Below are positions 18,079 to 27,437 of a DNA stretch of 33,670 bases, piece after piece. Source of the stretch: Cytophagales bacterium (GTDB lineage Bacteria; Bacteroidota; Bacteroidia; Cytophagales; Microscillaceae); the NCBI GenBank assembly GCA_013298075.1, contig JAAFJG010000051.1, positions 1 through 33,670 of the forward strand, given 5' to 3'. The translations under genes and the position numbers were made by a program. Position 1 is the first letter of the stretch. Each line of letters begins with the position of its first letter. Below the pieces are notes generated by a model. The model worked only from the letters and a program-made list of their open reading frames with translations, was not told where the DNA came from and searched no databases.

Positions 18079-19353
18079 ATGTTGTTGCTAAATGTACTTC
18101 GTGAACAAACCGATAAAGTAATAGAAGGTTTAAAAAAACGCCATTTTCCCAATGCTGAAATATTGGTAAAAGAGGTTTTGGCTATAGATTTACGCAGACG
18201 TGAATCTCAAGTGGAATTAGATAATATTAATGCAGAAATGAATAAATTATCGAAATCTATTGGCGAATTAATGAAAAATGGCAAAAAAGAAGAAGCAGAA
18301 AAAGCAAAAAAAACGACATTAGACCTAAAAATAAAAACAAAAGAATTAGAAATAAAACTCAAAAATACAGAAGAAACTTTGTACGAAATGCACGTAAAGT
18401 TACCAAATGTACCTTTTGAAGACGTAAAAGCAGGAAAAGGAGCAGAAGATAACGAAATTATCAAAGAGCCAACGTCTTTGCCTGAATTACCTGAAAGTGC
18501 TTTGCCCCATTGGGATTTGATAAAACAATACGATATTATTGACTTTGATTTAGGAATTAAAATTGCAGGAGCAGGTTTTCCTGTTTATAAAGGAAAAGGG
18601 GCGAAATTACAACGTGCTTTGATAAATTTCTTTTTAGATGAGGCTGAAAAAGCAGGGTATAAAGAAATACAACCGCCTATTTTAATCAATAAAGAATCGG
18701 GTTTTGGTACGGGACAACTTCCTGATAAAGATGGACAAATGTATTTTGCGAATGAAGATGAATTGTATTTGATACCGACTGCGGAAGTGCCAATTACTAA
18801 TTTGTATCGCGATGTAATTATAGAAGAAAAAGATTTGCCCATCAAAAATGTAGGTTATACGCCTTGTTTTAGGCGTGAAGCAGGTTCTTGGGGGGCGCAT
18901 GTACGAGGTTTGAATCGCTTGCATCAATTTGATAAAGTGGAAATTGTACAAATTGCTCACCCTTCAAAATCATATCAGATTTTGGAAGAAATGAGTAAAT
19001 ATGTGCAAGGATTGTTAGAAAAATTAGAATTGCCTTATCGTGTATTGCGTTTGTGTGGAGGTGATATGGGCTTTACCTCTGCGATGACTTACGATATGGA
19101 AGTATATTCAGCCGCTCAAAAACGTTGGTTGGAAGTAAGTTCTGTGAGTAATTTTGAAACTTTTCAGGCAAATCGTTTGCAGTTAAGATATAGAGATGCA
19201 GACAAAAAAAATCATACTGCCCATACTTTAAATGGTAGTGCGTTGGCTTTACCCAGAATTGTGGCATCTATTTTAGAAAATAATCAAACGAATGAAGGCA
19301 TTAATATTCCAAAAATTTTAATACCTTACACAAAATTTGATGTAATTAATTAG
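18079..19353 (+). CDS. serS: Seryl-tRNA synthetase
   Basis: A 424-residue class II aminoacyl-tRNA synthetase charging tRNA-Ser and Sec tRNA. The N-terminal long coiled-coil arm (about 30-100, Lys/Glu rich) reaches the tRNA variable arm. In the catalytic domain, TAEVPITNLYRDVI is the serine-binding strand, GYTPCFRREAGSWGAHVRGLNRLHQFDKVE is motif 2, and NGSALALPRIVASILENNQT is motif 3 with the ATP-binding Arg. It is full length with its own promoter. Confidence 0.97.
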   Translation: MLLLNVLREQTDKVIEGLKKRHFPNAEILVKEVLAIDLRRRESQVELDNINAEMNKLSKSIGELMKNGKKEEAEKAKKTTLDLKIKTKELEIKLKNTEETLYEMHVKLPNVPFEDVKAGKGAEDNEIIKEPTSLPELPESALPHWDLIKQYDIIDFDLGIKIAGAGFPVYKGKGAKLQRALINFFLDEAEKAGYKEIQPPILINKESGFGTGQLPDKDGQMYFANEDELYLIPTAEVPITNLYRDVIIEEKDLPIKNVGYTPCFRREAGSWGAHVRGLNRLHQFDKVEIVQIAHPSKSYQILEEMSKYVQGLLEKLELPYRVLRLCGGDMGFTSAMTYDMEVYSAAQKRWLEVSSVSNFETFQANRLQLRYRDADKKNHTAHTLNGSALALPRIVASILENNQTNEGINIPKILIPYTKFDVIN

Positions 19354-19542
19354 AAAATAGTTACTTTTTTTAAAATATAAGAATAAATAAAAGGTATTAA
19401 ATTGATAAAAAAAATATTATTTTTTGTTTTTATAAAAATAAATCATAAATTGCAATCGAAAAAATTACTTAAAAAAAAAAAATAATTTAAAATAACTTGT
19501 TTTTCAACTAAAATAAACGAAAAATATATAAAAAAATTTACT

Positions 19543-20571
19543 ATGAAAAAGACATTACTTTTTTTGTTGCTGATGGTTCTTGTATCCATTTCAACAAACA
19601 TTTATGCACAAAAAACGCCTCCAAGTCAACTAATTGAAAAATATTGGAGTGTAGGTGTCCAAGTAAACGCATTCAATTATTTTGGAGATTTGAATCCGTT
19701 GAAACAATATGTTTCTACAAAAATTGAGTTCACTCGCCCCAATTTTGCGATTAATATTTCTAAAAAAATGACTAGAAATTTGTCTATTCGTGCAAGTTTG
19801 GGGTATGGTAGGATTGTCGGAGATGATTCTCAATCTGCAAACGTGAAAAATTTAGAAAGTGTGGGAAGATATGGTCGTAATTTACACTTCCGTAACGATA
19901 TTTTTGAATTGGCTTTCGTAGGTATTTATGAATTTAAAAGTAGCAAAGGACGTTTTTATCGCCGTTCTTATTTAACTCCTTATGTGATGGCAGGGATTGC
20001 AGGAATTTATCATAATCCAAAAGCAAAAACCGCAGAAAGTATGGGCGGAAATTGGGTTGCTTTACAACCATTAGGTACAGAAGGACAAGGAAAACAAGGA
20101 TATGCCAAAGCATATTCTTTATGGCAATTAGCATTTCCAGTAGGCGTTGGTTTGCGTTATCGTTTGAATGATAAATTAGATATTTCTGCTGAAATTGGAT
20201 TCAGAATTACAACCACTGACCATTTAGATGATGTAGGTGGACGTTATGCAAATCTTAGAGATTTAGACTCTGATTTAGCAAGAAAAATGGCTGACCGTTC
20301 AGCAGAGCCAACTTCTGCCTTGACAGGACAAGCACGTGATATGGCAGCCTTGACTGCTGTGGTGGGTGGTGCTACCAATATGTACGGTTCAAATGATGAT
20401 TTGGGTAATTTAGTTCCTGTGGCAGGTTATCAACGTTTATTAGGTTATGGTTTGAAAGGGGATGTAAGAGGTTCAGGTGGATTTGCCAAAAATGATATGT
20501 ATGTAGTAACAGGTTTTCACTTGAATTATATATTGACTACACGTCGTCATCCACGTTATCGTAGTAGATAA
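19543..20571 (+). CDS. DUF6089 outer-membrane beta-barrel protein (PorG-like)
   Basis: A 342-residue protein with a signal peptide (MKKTLLFLLLMVLVSISTNIYA, cut before Q23) and alternating amphipathic strands typical of a small outer-membrane barrel. The segments FNYFGDLNP, FTRPNFAINISKKMTRNLSIRASLGYGRIVGDD and RNLHFRNDIFELAFVGIYEF are the DUF6089 pattern, the family that includes the type IX secretion protein PorG. A long insert near residues 230-290 is rich in Asp, Ala and Gly. It stands 109 bp before a PorE-like gene on the same strand, supporting a shared envelope machine. The PorG equivalence is inferred. Confidence 0.75.
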   Translation: MKKTLLFLLLMVLVSISTNIYAQKTPPSQLIEKYWSVGVQVNAFNYFGDLNPLKQYVSTKIEFTRPNFAINISKKMTRNLSIRASLGYGRIVGDDSQSANVKNLESVGRYGRNLHFRNDIFELAFVGIYEFKSSKGRFYRRSYLTPYVMAGIAGIYHNPKAKTAESMGGNWVALQPLGTEGQGKQGYAKAYSLWQLAFPVGVGLRYRLNDKLDISAEIGFRITTTDHLDDVGGRYANLRDLDSDLARKMADRSAEPTSALTGQARDMAALTAVVGGATNMYGSNDDLGNLVPVAGYQRLLGYGLKGDVRGSGGFAKNDMYVVTGFHLNYILTTRRHPRYRSR

Positions 20572-20595
20572 TTTTAGATTTTTATTCATGTATCG

Positions 20596-20636
20596 AAACT
20601 AATTTTTGAATTAGTTTTGGTATATGTATTTATACC
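20596..20636. other. Two adjacent hairpins between the PorG-like and PorE-like genes
   Basis: AAACTAATT (20596-20604) pairs with AATTAGTTT (20609-20617), then GGTATA (20619-20624) pairs with TATACC (20631-20636). They could act as an attenuator or mRNA processing site that sets different levels of the two proteins. Confidence 0.4.
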
Positions 20637-20680
20637 ACAAATATAATTCTTTTAAATTATAAAAAAAACAAAAATATAGT

Positions 20681-22450
20681 ATGAAAAAGATTTTAACTTT
20701 AACATTTTTTCTGATATTCTTAGGCTTATCTTATCAAATAAAAGCACAAGACAGAGAAATAGCACGCTTAAATAAAGAAGCACAAATGTCAATGGAATAT
20801 AATGAATATAACTCTGCGATGGAGATATATAAAGATCTATTGAAATCAAAGCCAAATGAATTAGAGTATAACTATCAAATGGGAGTCTGTTTGTTGTATT
20901 CATCTTCAAAAAAAGAAGGATTTTCTTATTTGAAAAAAGTATATGACCAAACACCTGATTTCAAACCTGAACTTCCTTATATGTTGGCGCAAGCGTATCA
21001 TTCTAAAGCAGAATATGAAACTGCTAAAGAAATGTATCAAAAAGCAAAACCTGTACTTGAAAAAGCAAAAAGCGAAGCAAGTGCATCAAAAATGAAAAGA
21101 CGTGCTAAAGAAAAAAGAGTAGCCGATTTAGATAACATGATAAAAATGTGCGACAAAAAAGCCTCTGAATGTGATAATGGTACTAAATACTCTAAAGAAC
21201 CTATTTATGCAGACATCGAAAATTTAGGTGGAAACATCAATAGTGCAGGACCAGATTATACGCCTTTGATTCCATCTGATACATCTTTTATGGTATTTAC
21301 TTCACGCAGACCCGAAAATGTAGGTAAAAGAGTAGATTATTCTGACAATGAATATTTTGAAGACGTGTATATGTCTGAAAATAAAAATGGTAAATTCGGA
21401 AAAGCACAAAATATTTCCAATCTAAATAAAAAATATCATGATGCTGCTGCTGCTCTTTCTTCTGATGGAAATTTATTGTTGATATACAGAGATAACACAA
21501 AAACAAAAGGTGATTTGTATCAAAGCAAAAGAAACAGCAAAAAAGATATGTTTCCAGAGCCAAAAAAAATGAACAAAAATATCAATTCTAAATTCCAAGA
21601 AACGGCTGCTTGTATCACTCCTGATGGAAATACAATGTATTTTGCAAGCGACAGACCAGGTGGAATGGGCGGATTAGATATTTATGTAGTCAAAAAAGAA
21701 GGAAATGATTGGGGCGTACCTAAAAATATGGGCGCACCTATCAATACCTCTTTTGATGATGACTCTCCTTTTTTGACTAATGATGGAAAAACTTTTTATT
21801 TTAGTTCAAAAGGACACGATACAATGGGTGGATTTGATATTTTCCGTTCTTCAAAAGAAGGTGATACATTTGGACAACCTGAAAATTTAGGAACTCCTAT
21901 CAATGGACCTGAAGATGACGCACATTTAGTATTGACTGATGATGGCAAAATGGGATTTTATGTATCAGCAGAAGAAGGTGGAATGGGTGATAAAGATATT
22001 TATCGTTTGAGCGCTCCAAAACGTACTATGGTTAAATTAGATAAAAATGGTTTGAATATCACACCTCCCGGAAGTGCTAAAACTGACGTAGATAAACCTG
22101 CTGCAAAACCTGATTTTAAATTTTTAGTATTGTTTGATTATGATAAAAGTAATTTGAACAAACCAATTTCACAAGAATCTTGTAATAGTTTATTGAAATT
22201 TATGCAAGAAAATCCTTCAATAAGAGTTGAATTGGGCGGACATACTTGTAATATTGGTTCTGCGGCTTATAATCAAGCACTTTCTACACAAAGAGCAAAG
22301 GCAGTAGCCAATTATATGATTGAAAGAGGAATAGATGCTAATCGTGTGGAAGTAAAAGGATATAACTTTGAAAAACCTGCTTATCCTAATTCAAATGAAA
22401 AAAATCGTACTTTGAACAGACGTACAGAATTTCAAATATTGGATAAATAA
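20681..22450 (+). CDS. TPR-PD40-OmpA envelope protein (PorE-like)
   Basis: 589 residues. A signal peptide ends at about A22 (YQIKAQ). TPR repeats cover about 28-130 (EYNSAMEIYKDLLKSKP). A PD40/WD40-like beta-propeller at about 175-450 has repeats such as CITPDGNTMYFASDRPGGMGGLDIY and FLTNDGKTFYFSSKGHDTMGGFDIF. The OmpA_C peptidoglycan-binding domain is at about 484-588. This order matches type IX secretion protein PorE and related gliding/secretion anchors. In the OmpA domain, the Asp that binds diaminopimelate in HTDN is Cys523 (GHTCNIG), while the matching Arg (R538) remains. It follows the PorG-like barrel and is closed by a strong terminator. Confidence 0.85.
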   Translation: MKKILTLTFFLIFLGLSYQIKAQDREIARLNKEAQMSMEYNEYNSAMEIYKDLLKSKPNELEYNYQMGVCLLYSSSKKEGFSYLKKVYDQTPDFKPELPYMLAQAYHSKAEYETAKEMYQKAKPVLEKAKSEASASKMKRRAKEKRVADLDNMIKMCDKKASECDNGTKYSKEPIYADIENLGGNINSAGPDYTPLIPSDTSFMVFTSRRPENVGKRVDYSDNEYFEDVYMSENKNGKFGKAQNISNLNKKYHDAAAALSSDGNLLLIYRDNTKTKGDLYQSKRNSKKDMFPEPKKMNKNINSKFQETAACITPDGNTMYFASDRPGGMGGLDIYVVKKEGNDWGVPKNMGAPINTSFDDDSPFLTNDGKTFYFSSKGHDTMGGFDIFRSSKEGDTFGQPENLGTPINGPEDDAHLVLTDDGKMGFYVSAEEGGMGDKDIYRLSAPKRTMVKLDKNGLNITPPGSAKTDVDKPAAKPDFKFLVLFDYDKSNLNKPISQESCNSLLKFMQENPSIRVELGGHTCNIGSAAYNQALSTQRAKAVANYMIERGIDANRVEVKGYNFEKPAYPNSNEKNRTLNRRTEFQILDK

Positions 22451-22466
22451 TCGATTTTGAAAATAT

Positions 22467-22504
22467 AAAAAAAAGCCTTTGCAGTAATGTAAAGGCTTTT
22501 TTTT
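22467..22504 (+). terminator. Terminator of the PorE-like gene
   Basis: AAAAAAAAGCCTTT (22467-22480) with AAAGGCTTTTTTTT (22491-22504) around a 10-nt loop. A classic stem with a T tract. Confidence 0.85.
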
Positions 22505-22520
22505 ATTATTATATCGAATA

Positions 22521-22558
22521 AAAAAAATCTAATTATATTACAATAATTAGATTTTTTT
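22521..22558 (-). terminator. Second terminator, for the converging YceI gene
   Basis: AAAAAAATCTAATTAT (22521-22536) pairs with ATAATTAGATTTTTTT (22543-22558). Its position 28 bp past the YceI stop suggests it serves the minus strand, though it is symmetric. Confidence 0.7.
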
Positions 22559-22585
22559 ATTTTTAATTTACTTTTGAAAAGAAAA

Positions 22586-23287
22586 TTATTTTTTTGCAGT
22601 TATATCAAAACCGATATGAACAGTAGGATTAATAAATGAATTTTTTATTGATTTATCACTTCCGTAAGAAAGTTTCCAATCTGTTCTTTCAATATTGAAT
22701 TTTGCTACTGCTTTTACATTACCATCTTTATCTACAGTAATTTTTGCAGGAAAACTAATAGATTTTTTTATGCCTTTCAATTCTAAATTACCTGTTACTC
22801 GTGAATTAGGGTCAGACAAAGTATATTTTTTTTCTTTTTCTTCACCATCATCTTTTTTAGACTTTGAATAACCTACTACATTTGTGATTTCAAAAGTTGC
22901 TTTAGGGAATTTTTCTACATCAAAAAAATCATTATCTTTTAAATGTTTTTCTAATTTTCCTTTTCCTTTGTCTTCAGTTAAATCTTTTACTTCTAAAGTA
23001 TTGATGTCAATCGTAAAACTTCCACCTACTACTTTTCTTTCTTTCACAGATAATTTACCTTCTGATAATTTGAAAGTACCATCGTGTCTATCCGTTGCTT
23101 TTGTGCCTACCCAAGTAACTACGCTTGATTTTGTATCCACCGCTACTTCCTCACTTTCAGCAGATTTTTTTTCATCTACTTTTTTTGCTTCGCTTGTTTC
23201 TGCTTTATCGCTTTTAGGGGCTTGTGAGCAATTTGTTGCTAAAAAAGCAACTGCTGAACTTAATAATATCGTTTTTAAGAAATTCAT
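22586..23287 (-). CDS. YceI-family lipoprotein (copy 1)
   Basis: 233 residues. Signal peptide MNFLKTILLSSAVAFLATNC has its lipobox Cys at position 20. A Lys/Glu/Ser-rich linker runs to about 50, then the YceI lipocalin-like barrel. YceI hallmarks are SSVVTWVGTKATDRHDGTFKL, GGSFTIDINTLEV, HLKDNDFFDVEKFPKATFEIT, VTGNLELKGIKKSISFPA and FNIERTDWKLSYGSD. The barrel binds isoprenoid-type lipids in characterised members, but the ligand here is unknown. A second copy lies upstream at 23555; the two arose by tandem duplication. This copy keeps lipidation and is probably membrane anchored. Confidence 0.93.
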   Translation of the reverse strand: MNFLKTILLSSAVAFLATNCSQAPKSDKAETSEAKKVDEKKSAESEEVAVDTKSSVVTWVGTKATDRHDGTFKLSEGKLSVKERKVVGGSFTIDINTLEVKDLTEDKGKGKLEKHLKDNDFFDVEKFPKATFEITNVVGYSKSKKDDGEEKEKKYTLSDPNSRVTGNLELKGIKKSISFPAKITVDKDGNVKAVAKFNIERTDWKLSYGSDKSIKNSFINPTVHIGFDITAKK

Positions 23288-23372
23288 AATAATAATAATA
23301 AAATAAAAATTTAAGATAAAAATTAAAAAATATCATTTAAAAAAATAAACGATTCGATGTAATAACATTTAA

Positions 23373-23537
23373 TTGATATAAATAGTTTCAAAAATTTCAA
23401 AAATCACTTATTTTATTGAGTTGAATAGCACGTTTTGCCATCATTACACAATCTTTGACAATAAAAATCAGAGGTTTAAATCTTTCATCTTTTGTAAAAC
23501 CTTGTTTGTAACGATAATAAATTTGTTGCAAAACAAC
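23373..23537. repeat. Direct repeat, left copy (duplicated phosphotransferase 3' end)
   Basis: 165 bp matching 24301-24465 with three mismatches, offset 928 bp. It marks the tandem duplication that includes the YceI gene. Confidence 0.95.
23397..23537 (-). pseudogene. 3' fragment of the phosphotransferase gene
   Basis: It encodes about the last 47 residues of the protein at 24325-25389 (from VVLQQIYYRYKQGF to KISDF), with a single visible residue change before the stop. It has no start and no upstream domain. It is a remnant left when a block of YceI plus the phosphotransferase 3' end was duplicated in tandem. It lies between the two YceI genes. Confidence 0.92.
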
Positions 23538-23554
23538 CAATAATTCGAATAAAA

Positions 23555-24253
23555 TTATTTTTTTGCAATAACCTCAAAACCAATATGAACAGTAGGGCGA
23601 ATAAATTTATCCCCTAATGATTTATCACTTCCATAAGAGATTTTCCAATCCGTTCTATCTATGTTAAATTTTGCTTCTGTTTTTACGTTACCTTTTTTAT
23701 CCACAGTTATTTTTGCAGGAAATGTAATAGATTTTTTTATGCCTTTCAATTCTAAATTACCTGTTACTAATGAATTGGGCACAGACAAAATATATTTTTC
23801 TTCATTTTGCTCAACATATTTTTCAGGTTTTGTATAATCTTTTATACTTGTAATTTCAAAAGTTGCTGTAGGAAATTTTTTTACTTCAAAGAAATCAACA
23901 CTTTTTAAATGTCCTTCTAATTTGAACTTTCCGCTACTTTGAGTTAAATCTTTTACATCTAAAGAATTGACGTCAATTGTAAAACTTCCGCCTACTACTT
24001 TTTTATTTTTTACAGATAATTTACCTTCTGATAATTTGAAAGTACCATTATGTTTACCAGTTACTTTTGTACCTATCCAAGTAACTACACTTGATGTTGT
24101 GTCCACAGATATTTCTTTACTTTCAGCAAATTTTTCTCTCTCTACTTTTTTTGCTTCGCTTGTTTCAGCTTTATAGCCTTTAGGTGCTTGTGTGAAATTT
24201 ATTGCTAAGAAAGCAACCATTGAACTTAATAATATTGTTTTTAGAAAATTCAT
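23555..24253 (-). CDS. YceI-family protein (copy 2), lipobox lost
   Basis: 232 residues from ATG 24253; the frame extends to 24328, but that would overlap the phosphotransferase stop and lacks homology with copy 1. The signal peptide MNFLKTILLSSMVAFLAINF aligns exactly with copy 1, but the lipobox Cys20 is Phe, so the protein should be secreted or membrane-tethered by its signal and not lipidated. The YceI barrel is intact: SSVVTWIGTKVTGKHNGTFKL, GGSFTIDVNSLDV, VTGNLELKGIKKSITFPA, RTDWKISYGSD. By eye about 70 % of residues match copy 1. A changed cell location is inferred. Confidence 0.9.
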   Translation of the reverse strand: MNFLKTILLSSMVAFLAINFTQAPKGYKAETSEAKKVEREKFAESKEISVDTTSSVVTWIGTKVTGKHNGTFKLSEGKLSVKNKKVVGGSFTIDVNSLDVKDLTQSSGKFKLEGHLKSVDFFEVKKFPTATFEITSIKDYTKPEKYVEQNEEKYILSVPNSLVTGNLELKGIKKSITFPAKITVDKKGNVKTEAKFNIDRTDWKISYGSDKSLGDKFIRPTVHIGFEVIAKK

Positions 24254-24300
24254 AATAACAAAATGTTTACGTTTATAATTTAAAAACTTTAATAATACCT

Positions 24301-24465
24301 TTGATACAAATAGTTTCAAAAATTTCAAAAATTACTTATTTTATTGAGTTGAATAGCACGTTTTGCCATCATTACACAATCTTTGACAATAAAAATCAGA
24401 GGTTTAAATCTTTCATCTTTTGTAAAACCTTGTTTGTAACGATAATAAATTTGTTGTAAAACAAC
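24301..24465. repeat. Direct repeat, right copy (within the phosphotransferase gene end)
   Basis: Partner of 23373-23537. It covers the 3' end of the intact gene and 24 bp beyond its stop. Confidence 0.95.
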
Positions 24466-25389
24466 TGACAATTTGAACAAAGCAAAAGCATAATAAAAAA
24501 CTAAATTTTCTACTTTTTGCTTTCTTTTTTCTTCATATATTTCTACTGCCTCTTGTCGGCTTATCATACCTTCGATAATAGGCACATTCAAAGAATTTAA
24601 CAACAAAGAGTCATTTTTTTCGGGCAAATAACCCAATGCAATGCCCAAATCGGTATTTGAATCACCCACAGTACTCATTTCCCAATCTAACACACCAATA
24701 ATTTCGCTCAAATTATTTTGATTTAAAACCACATTATCATATTTATAATCATTGTGTAAAAAAGTTGGTTTTAAATTATCTTCTTTTTGATTGCTTGCCA
24801 ACCAATGTATCACAAAATCTATGTCCGCAATTTCATCGGTTTTAGAATGATTATATCTTTGAATCCAACCCGAAATTTGTCTTTCTAAATATCCTTCAGG
24901 CTTACCAATTTCTATCAATTTTGTTTCATAAATATCAATATTATGCATATCAGCCAAATTTTCAATGAGATTTTGACTTAGTTTTTTTGCCATATCTTTT
25001 GATAGGTCAATGGTTTGTTTTGCCCTCAAAATTGTCCCTTTTATTCTTTCCATCACATAAAAAGGTGAGCCAATAATGGTCAAATCATCAGAATAAACCA
25101 CTGTTTTGGGTGATTTTTCGTAGCATTTATTTATCAAAGACAATACTTTATGTTCTCTTTGCATATCGTGTCCTTTGTTGATATGTTCTGCTCCTTTGGG
25201 AGGACGGCGTAAAATAAATTCTTTTTCGCCTAATTTTAATAAATAAGTTAGATTAGAATAACCGCCCGGAAATTGTAAAATTTCTAAAGGTAAATGATTG
25301 GTTTCTAAAATTTGATTGAGAAAAATGGCTAATTTTTCCGTAGGAATTTCCTCGCCTTCTCTGATATTTTTTGCTTCGTCTGTATTCAT
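24325..25389 (-). CDS. Phosphotransferase of the APH family (ACAD10/11-like)
   Basis: A 354-residue kinase-fold enzyme. The nucleotide loop region is LQFPGGYSNLTYLLKLGEKEFILRRPPKG (about 39-66). The Brenner motif is HNDYKYDN (H212, D214, N219), and the metal-binding DWE (D235) is in GVLDWEMSTVGD. LRRPP and the GYLERQISGW segment place it with the ACAD10/11-like group, where members phosphorylate 4-hydroxyacyl-CoAs in some organisms and are not antibiotic-resistance enzymes. That substrate is inferred. It is 3 bp downstream of a LytTR regulator, so it is almost surely in one operon. Confidence 0.9.
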   Translation of the reverse strand: MNTDEAKNIREGEEIPTEKLAIFLNQILETNHLPLEILQFPGGYSNLTYLLKLGEKEFILRRPPKGAEHINKGHDMQREHKVLSLINKCYEKSPKTVVYSDDLTIIGSPFYVMERIKGTILRAKQTIDLSKDMAKKLSQNLIENLADMHNIDIYETKLIEIGKPEGYLERQISGWIQRYNHSKTDEIADIDFVIHWLASNQKEDNLKPTFLHNDYKYDNVVLNQNNLSEIIGVLDWEMSTVGDSNTDLGIALGYLPEKNDSLLLNSLNVPIIEGMISRQEAVEIYEEKRKQKVENLVFYYAFALFKLSVVLQQIYYRYKQGFTKDERFKPLIFIVKDCVMMAKRAIQLNKISNF

Positions 25390-25392
25390 TTT

Positions 25393-26145
25393 TTAGTGTT
25401 GTGCTAATCTATCCATTAATAAATTTTTTTTATCTTGTGCCAAAGGTATTTCTTTTTTGTTGTTCATTGTGATTGTATAGTTTTTTTTATCGATTTTAAG
25501 AATTTTTTTAATATTTATTAAATAACTTCTATGACTTTTAAAAAAATTATCTTGAACTTCTAAATATTCAAAATTAGTCAATCTTTTCGAAATCAAAATC
25601 ATGCCTTGCGTTTCTGTATAAAAATTACAATAACCACTATCTGCCTCAATAAAAACAATATCAGATAATTTGACGATATGTAATTCTTCTGCAGTTTGTA
25701 AAATTACTTTTTTATCTTGACTATTTTGCATATTTTCTAATAAAACCTTATAATTTTGTGCTTCATTTTCTATTTTTGGGCGAGCGAGTAATTTTTTTAC
25801 GGCTCTTTCTAATGCTTCAAAACGCACAGGTTTTAAAATATAATCTACGGCAGAAATCTCGAAAGCCTGCAAAGAATATTCGCTATACGCGGTTACAAAA
25901 ATGATTTTAAAATTTATCTTGGCATTATCAAAAAAATCTAACAAATCAAAACCACTATAAGTAGGCATTTCAATATCCAAAAAAACAACGTCAGGCTGCA
26001 AAGTATTGATGGCTTTTACGGCTTCGGGAACGTCTTTACATTCTTGAATAATGGTAATGTTATCAGCAAAACTTTCTTCTAACATACCTCTCAGCACATT
26101 TCTTGCCATTGGTTCATCATCAACAATGATAGTTTTTAGCATCAT
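25393..26145 (-). CDS. LytTR-family response regulator
   Basis: 250 residues. The REC domain (1-120) has acidic pocket D9-D10, phosphoacceptor D57 (VVFLDIEMP), VTAYSEYSLQAF and the Lys of ILKPV. The LytTR domain (about 150-248) has LHIVKLSDIVFIEADSGYCNFY and NFFKSHRSYLINIKKI. Two ATGs (26145 and 26142) are in tandem; either may start. It is transcribed ahead of the phosphotransferase gene, 3 bp apart. No sensor kinase is in the window. It is the second orphan LytTR regulator here, and the two are clearly different proteins. Confidence 0.92.
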   Translation of the reverse strand: MMLKTIIVDDEPMARNVLRGMLEESFADNITIIQECKDVPEAVKAINTLQPDVVFLDIEMPTYSGFDLLDFFDNAKINFKIIFVTAYSEYSLQAFEISAVDYILKPVRFEALERAVKKLLARPKIENEAQNYKVLLENMQNSQDKKVILQTAEELHIVKLSDIVFIEADSGYCNFYTETQGMILISKRLTNFEYLEVQDNFFKSHRSYLINIKKILKIDKKNYTITMNNKKEIPLAQDKKNLLMDRLAQH

Positions 26146-26170
26146 ATTTTTATTTTGTATTATGTTTTAG

Positions 26171-26178
26171 CAAAAGTA
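26171..26178 (-). promoter_or_regulatory. -7 promoter element of the LytTR-phosphotransferase operon
   Basis: On the minus strand it reads TACTTTTG, matching TAnnTTTG, 25 bp before the ATG at 26145. No -33 TTG is clear. Confidence 0.5.
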
Positions 26179-26411
26179 ATCATTGTTTTTTAATATTTTT
26201 TGGTTTGTAAAAAAAATATTTTGTAGATGGTATGCATGATGAAAAAAATGTAAAAAAAATACCTTTAAAAAATCATAAATATAGTTCTAAAAATATTTTT
26301 AGAACAGGACTTAATATCGTTCGTGAAATTTTTATAAAGAAAAGGGAAATTTTTTTTATCGATACTTGGAATAATTTTATTGATGAATTTATTCATCGGA
26401 CAAGAATTAGG

Positions 26412-26550
26412 TATCTTCTAAAAAATATAATACCCATTTAAAAGCGTTTTTTATCGGAAAAATTCCTTTTTTATCGGAAAAATTCCTTCAAGGTTTTAAA
26501 AACCTTGAAGGAATCGTACTCGGTGGGTATATTATTTGCTACTTAGTCCC
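26412..26550. repeat. Palindromic repeat element (family 2)
   Basis: The right end, on the minus strand, reads GGGACTAAGTAGC then AATAATATACCC (26525-26550), as at 10981 and 11606. The left side has a weak inverted counterpart (CTAAAAAATATAATACCC, 26418-26435). Inside are an exact tandem 20-bp duplication TTTTTTATCGGAAAAATTCC (26447-26466, 26467-26486) and a hairpin at 26482-26514. The nature of the element is inferred. Confidence 0.5.
26482..26514. other. 16-bp perfect hairpin
   Basis: ATTCCTTCAAGGTTTT (26482-26497) and its complement (26499-26514) flank one base. There is no T tract after it, so it is more likely a repeat palindrome than a terminator. Confidence 0.7.
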
Positions 26551-26718
26551 TTAAAACCAATATTTTTAACCGTTTAAAAAAACATCGGGTAGTATAATGA
26601 AAAAAAAAAAAAAAAAATTGTAACAAAATACATGTAGTTTGGTAATCTATTCAAACGCTGATAAAAAATAACATCAGCATCAAAAAATTCACATTTAAAA
26701 TTATAAATTTTTAGTTAT

Positions 26719-27437
26719 ATGAAACGATCATAGTTGTCTGTTTAATTGCTTGTATTAATTTTTTGCATATTGATAATGTACAAGCACAAAAAAAGAAAGA
26801 ATTACGTAATAGTGATTTGAAAGCCGTAAAAATTGCTCGTAAAGAAGCAAGCAAACGTGAAAAACAAGGTTGGGACGTTCCTCCTGGGTCTATTCCAATG
26901 GCAAAATCATTCGAAAATGCTTGGGAATTAGAATTAGAAGAAAATGCAGATGGCTCTAAAAAATATATTGTAGCCACAGGTTCATCAGTCGCAGGTACAA
27001 ACTCAGCAGCAGACCAAGCAGCCATGACTGCCGCAAGAAATGAATTAGCAGCAGCGTTGGGGGCAAAAGTTTCTGAATTAATCGAAACAAAAAGAGCAAA
27101 CGACCAAATCGACCAGAAAACTGCCAACACATTAGACAAAACAGTTTCAAATAGTAAAACTTTAATTCAGGCGGAATTAACACAAATCAGAACAGGATAT
27201 AAAATTTATAGACAAGTTTCGGACCAGGTAGATAAAAAAGGAAGACCTTTGCAAGGGGCAAAAACTAATGTGAACGCAGAGGTAAAAATATTTTATAATC
27301 AAGAAGAGGCAATGAAAGCAGCTACAAAAATTATCAGAAAAGAACTTGAAAAAGAATCTGATGAATTAGGTAAACAATTAGATGATATTTTAAACATCAA
27401 CCCAAGAAAAAGAGGTGATGAATTGAAAAAAGACTAA
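26719..27437 (+). CDS. LPP20-like secreted protein with frameshifted signal peptide
   Basis: The body (from about 26790) is a secreted protein of about 220 residues with the Ala-rich helix-strand pattern SAADQAAMTAARNELAAALGAKVSEL and NVNAEVKIFYNQEEAMKAATKII, similar to LPP20-type domains; this family call is tentative. In its frame the 5' part codes a signal-like segment (TIIVVCLIACIN, then FLHIDNVQAQ) but has no ATG. The ATG at 26719 is one base out of frame: adding one A to ATGAAAC would give MKTIIVVCLIACINF and so on. As written, only a TTG at 26763, inside the signal, is in frame. Either a real mutation or a homopolymer sequencing error. A terminator follows. Confidence 0.7.

Follow-up and report, generated by a model that had tools for sequence, protein, structure and literature searches.

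Why should the useless 3' end of a gene be kept almost unchanged while the genes next to it have drifted well apart? This question is raised by a locus in the window (the whole stretch of 33,670 nucleotides that was analysed, from contig JAAFJG010000051.1 of a Cytophagales bacterium). Read along the minus strand, the locus holds a LytTR response regulator (26145-25393), an intact APH-family phosphotransferase, here called the kinase (25389-24325; a 354-aa ORF matching PF01636 with E 2.9e-36), a YceI gene (YceI2, 24253-23555), an orphan copy of the kinase 3' end (23553-23373) and another YceI gene (YceI1, 23287-22586). In a profile search YceI1 and YceI2 score 94.8 and 101.5 bits (E 8.3e-27 and 7.1e-29), both above the curated cut-off of 23.7 for PF04264. 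The initial annotation had observed that each tail copy is followed by a minus-strand YceI gene, as is indeed the case, that 23373-23537 and 24301-24465 differ at three of 165 bases, and that the YceI proteins are by eye about 70% identical. A base-by-base count gives exactly three mismatches (at 24307, 24333 and 24457), and 169 of the 233 columns in the protein alignment are identical. At the DNA level the YceI copies differ at 119 of 699 aligned bases (83.0% identity). The paradox is real: at the age of the YceI copies about 19% of the tail is expected to differ, and a segment of 149 bases differs once.

The repeat is longer and less even than first described. It spans 181 bases (24301-24481 and 23373-23553), made up of the last 157 bases of the kinase and 24 bases beyond its stop, and contains 8 mismatches. 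Six of these fall within 25 bases (24457-24481), which divides the repeat into a divergent head (23529-23553 in the orphan tail, 6 of 25 bases differing from 24457-24481) and a near-identical body (23373-23528, 2 of 156 bases differing from 24301-24456). This split had escaped the first count, correct as that was. Within the body the perfect repeat measures 123 bases (24334-24456). All 8 mismatches are transitions. The YceI repeat ends 7 bases past each stop, at 22579 and 23548. With the tail repeat starting at 24481 and 23553, the tail boundary is the junction of a tandem duplication.

How different the two tails ought to be can be estimated from the YceI genes. Splitting the synonymous divergence between YceI1 and YceI2 (dS 0.343) equally between the copies, a simple model with an unconstrained tail and a constrained kinase predicts differences at 0.187 of sites. 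The head agrees with this prediction: nine codons in the kinase frame (27 bases, 24480-24454 against 23552-23526) show 6 differences where 5.05 are expected. Its homology is judged from 19 matches out of 24 in register, 18 out of 24 being reached by 4 of 67292 window placements (presumably including the head itself and the kinase copy). The tail fragment thus looks as old as the YceI duplication. In the adjoining segment 24456-24308 (149 bases, 3 of them overlapping the 27 of the head), however, a single difference is found against 27.9 expected (binomial P 1.4e-12), and over the 156 bases 24456-24301 there are two (P 6e-12, or 3e-5 at half the rate). Unevenness of identity was also assessed by comparing the best-scoring segment with 5000 column permutations at mismatch costs of 4, 8 and 20. 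At a cost of 8 or 20 the best segment is again 24456-24308 (149 columns, 1 difference), with a score reached in none of the 5000 permutations; at the lenient cost of 4 it becomes 24465-23618, most of the unit, and is non-significant (p 0.15). Synonymous sites are homogenised too, with no differences at 25.3 such sites in the last 42 kinase codons. Past the tract the copies differ again, with indels and low identity (24300-24254 against 23372-23288). Such a pattern, near identity in the body and divergence on either side, is characteristic of a conversion tract. Judged from the sequence, a stretch near 24456-24301 was most likely overwritten recently by gene conversion from the intact kinase, which is one of the explanations put forward initially.

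The kinase is the likely (putative) donor because it is intact and because its last 45 codons have changed no more toward the sister species than the rest of the gene (dS 0.55 and dN 0.043, against 0.80 and 0.076). This sister (G001) belongs to the same genus, its kinase protein being 88% identical. A transfer from kinase to orphan tail, rather than the reverse, is suggested by the kinase being under selection and the orphan being free of it. Conversion between sequences about 19% apart is inefficient, and at this divergence recurrent events may be needed. The arrangement occurs in one genome only, so conversion is read from a single haplotype, and the head is short; no second strain of the species is present among the matches of the genome and relative searches. 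Inside YceI the longest identical run is 44 bases, and the permutation test for conversion there is non-significant (p 0.11 at cost 8, 0.69 at cost 4).

A similar pattern might arise if the tandem duplication were recent and recombination with a diverged strain had then replaced YceI2 (24300 to about 23530). In line with this, the divergent stretch is contiguous and comprises the YceI2 upstream region, YceI2 and the head of the orphan tail. This head is kinase sequence, however, so that the donor strain must have had the same tandem arrangement and the duplication would be old anyway. Had the donor possessed only one YceI, the import should have come with the donor's own downstream sequence and not with a kinase tail. 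We regard such an import as unlikely.

The tail could also be kept alike by selection, as a functional RNA, a terminator (both proposed in the initial annotation) or a regulatory element for YceI1. It does lie directly upstream of YceI1, a run of 12 bases near its end (TTGAAACTATTT) is also found upstream of the sister's YceI, and promoter-like matches occur in and around both copies, though their number in the region (19) is in line with that of shuffles (16.7, sd 4.6). Nonetheless, a search of 20001-27000 (E up to 1) gave no Rfam match in the tail, no terminator-like site was found in it, and shuffled sequences fold about as well as it does (z -0.49 and +0.38 for the minus strand of the two copies, in 150-base pieces, and -0.29 for the plus strand of the copy at 24301-24481). 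The sister's YceI shows no trace of kinase-coding sequence upstream. Furthermore, selection on the tail would require the kinase's own synonymous sites to freeze, yet in this segment they vary freely between the species (the dS of 0.55 given above). A functional RNA or terminator in the tail is not supported, and selection of any such kind seems very improbable. Two sub-threshold matches to the Rfam Thr_leader family (30.9 and 29.0 bits, gathering 55) lie outside the tail, at a hairpin (22454-22521). Matches to the tail elsewhere in the genome (C78, 81% over 53 bases; C67, 80% over 45) are AT-rich and do not appear in the kinase protein search; they were treated as chance.

The age of the duplication was measured with one sister species as yardstick. 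Synonymous divergence is 0.343 between YceI1 and YceI2, 0.589 between YceI1 and the sister's YceI and 0.558 between YceI2 and the latter; five other genes (kinase, response regulator, PD40/OmpA, SerRS and methyltransferase) give 0.56-0.76 between the species. The distance between YceI1 and YceI2 is the smallest of the three in 98.95% of 2000 codon bootstraps, so the duplication is probably younger than the species split. Proteins lean the other way. In a tree of 23 rows (YceI1, YceI2, the sister's YceI and 20 relatives, loci L029-L048) YceI2 falls outside YceI1 and the sister's YceI with support 87/80, and the non-synonymous distance favours a younger duplication in 17% of bootstraps only. Both observations can be explained by the acceleration of YceI2 described below. 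An older duplication, before the split, is possible. The initial annotation had named a long separation of the YceI copies, with the tail duplicated later by an independent event, as the history that would contradict it. The protein tree taken alone points in that direction, but the synonymous distances date the duplication after the split, the tail head has the same age as the YceI duplication, and the tail is located at the tandem junction; this history is most unlikely. An assembly artefact is scarcely credible, for although the genome is a draft of 153 contigs and the 123-base perfect repeat is about as long as a short read, the assembled path would be the sole linear one that uses each unique flank once.

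The two YceI copies have evolved at unequal rates. Branch omega is 0.70 for YceI2 (95% 0.37-1.74), against 0.27 for YceI1 and 0.22 for the sister's YceI, and in bootstraps YceI2 exceeds YceI1 in non-synonymous branch length in 99.65% and in omega in 94.85%. The strong diversifying selection suggested at first therefore holds in a weaker form: YceI2 evolves faster, but its omega is not above 1 with confidence and positive selection is a possibility only. The data are compatible with relaxed constraint as well as with a new role. In 11 of 11 sequences, namely YceI1, the sister's YceI and nine same-family rows (L029-L037), a cysteine stands near residue 19-22, a count that leaves out the weaker family matches (G003 and G006, and second or third matches in G005, G006, G013 and G014); YceI2 has phenylalanine instead. 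Its position behind a hydrophobic stretch, together with what is known of lipoproteins in general, suggests that this cysteine may be a lipid anchor. Transitions seemed to be in excess on the branch of YceI2 (44:22, with 23:19 on that of YceI1), a point that was dropped (Fisher p 0.23).

Gene order differs in the sister. Its single YceI match (78% identical) lies on another contig than the kinase, beside a methyltransferase-like gene, and its kinase is followed by a sigma-factor-like gene (both names from ORF reading); with an assembly 91% complete, a second YceI could be missing. In a search of 36 other genomes, the kinase has matches in 17, of which 16 have YceI matches as well. The two are adjacent in none of the 16, where some contigs are short and a few adjacencies possibly cut off. 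All listed kinase and YceI matches are on separate contigs in 15 of the 16 genomes, and in the single-contig G018 the distance between them exceeds 700 kb. Adjacency of kinase and YceI is thus seen in this genome alone, among those searched. A contig scan with the kinase, which kept 80 of 524 relatives, gave as best match L072 8374-9435 (metagenome-assembled Bacteroidetes, same coordinates as the G001 contig); identity at the other 79 loci is at most 56%.

Bases beyond the kinase stop are unlike the sequence downstream of the sister's kinase. Following the shared 12-base run, the upstream region of the sister's YceI goes on matching the 85 bases before YceI1 (23288-23372). YceI1 is followed by a hairpin (22521-22558, fold z -5.3), probably a terminator, and the sister's YceI has a corresponding one (z -6.8). 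Given this common upstream region and terminal hairpin, it seems that YceI, along with its upstream region, moved to a site behind the kinase and was duplicated there. The upstream region of YceI2 is shorter and lacks a palindrome-like element (23347-23367) common to YceI1 and the sister, and the interval from YceI2 to YceI1 showed no terminator-like site. This element has one exact match each in this genome (G000) and the sister, both before YceI, the pattern being derived from those two sites. Allowing 2 mismatches adds 4 and 3 matches, respectively (1 and 1 for a reversed-pattern control), with 0 in G002 (control 1). We claim no regulon for it.

Some features of the surroundings may be added. 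The PD40/OmpA gene and YceI1 are convergent, and the two adjoining hairpins between them (22465-22506 and 22521-22558) are the likely terminators of each. The Thr_leader matches mentioned above fall on the first of these hairpins. SerRS, an outer-membrane-protein-like gene and PD40/OmpA (18079-22586) are collinear in this genome, G001 and G002. The next gene is YceI1 here, efflux-adaptor-like in G001 and DNA-ligase-like in G002 (the last two by reading), so that gene order breaks directly beside the block. In G001 there is also a dispersed repeat, about 75-135 bases long with copies 83-92% alike, which matches in inverted orientation too (L026 1-99, 6123-6198 and 7408-7542; L070 424-558).

Overall, we think it likely that a tandem duplication was followed by drift of YceI and by a later conversion patch of the orphan tail from the kinase. 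A YceI gene with its own upstream region would have been placed behind the kinase, after which a block from 24481, inside the kinase, to 7 bases beyond the YceI stop would have been duplicated in tandem. The product would be kinase, YceI2, orphan tail, YceI1 and terminator, which is the anatomy observed; that the steps came in this order, and after the split from the sister, is what we infer. The copies would then have diverged, with YceI1 staying near the old form and YceI2 changing fast, and one or more later conversions would have replaced 23528-23373 in the orphan tail by the corresponding tract of the intact kinase (about 150 bases, near 24456-24301). Conversion into a dead fragment would be costless, while homogenisation of YceI would be opposed by selection or hindered by divergence. 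More speculatively, and with considerable doubt on our part, it might be the very deadness of the fragment that lets recurrent conversion keep it young, while YceI2 is allowed by selection to escape to a new, non-lipidated role; next to a diversifying pair, the fragment would then record ongoing conversion like a clock.

The expectation that useless copies decay fastest fails under conversion: it is the neutral piece that becomes homogenised, while the genes under selection stay different. With junction fragments of this kind as an internal control, a duplication and a conversion can both be dated inside one stretch of a few hundred bases. Tandem duplicates that diverge asymmetrically are a known pattern. 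The YceI pair resembles it in that one copy is conserved, whereas the other has evolved faster and has a changed N-terminus and upstream region; there is no difference in kind, the family here being YceI (PF04264). Prokaryotic paralogues are described as evolving in concert through gene conversion, and tuf is a case in which this has lasted long (PMC6053082). As in the tufA/tufB conversion, paralogous segments in one genome are more alike than their age allows, synonymous sites included. In contrast to tufA/tufB as described there, what was homogenised here is a dead gene fragment, part of a tandem block, and the adjacent genes escaped. The locus is a known mechanism, conversion between paralogues, at work on a small scale, and no new mechanism is involved.
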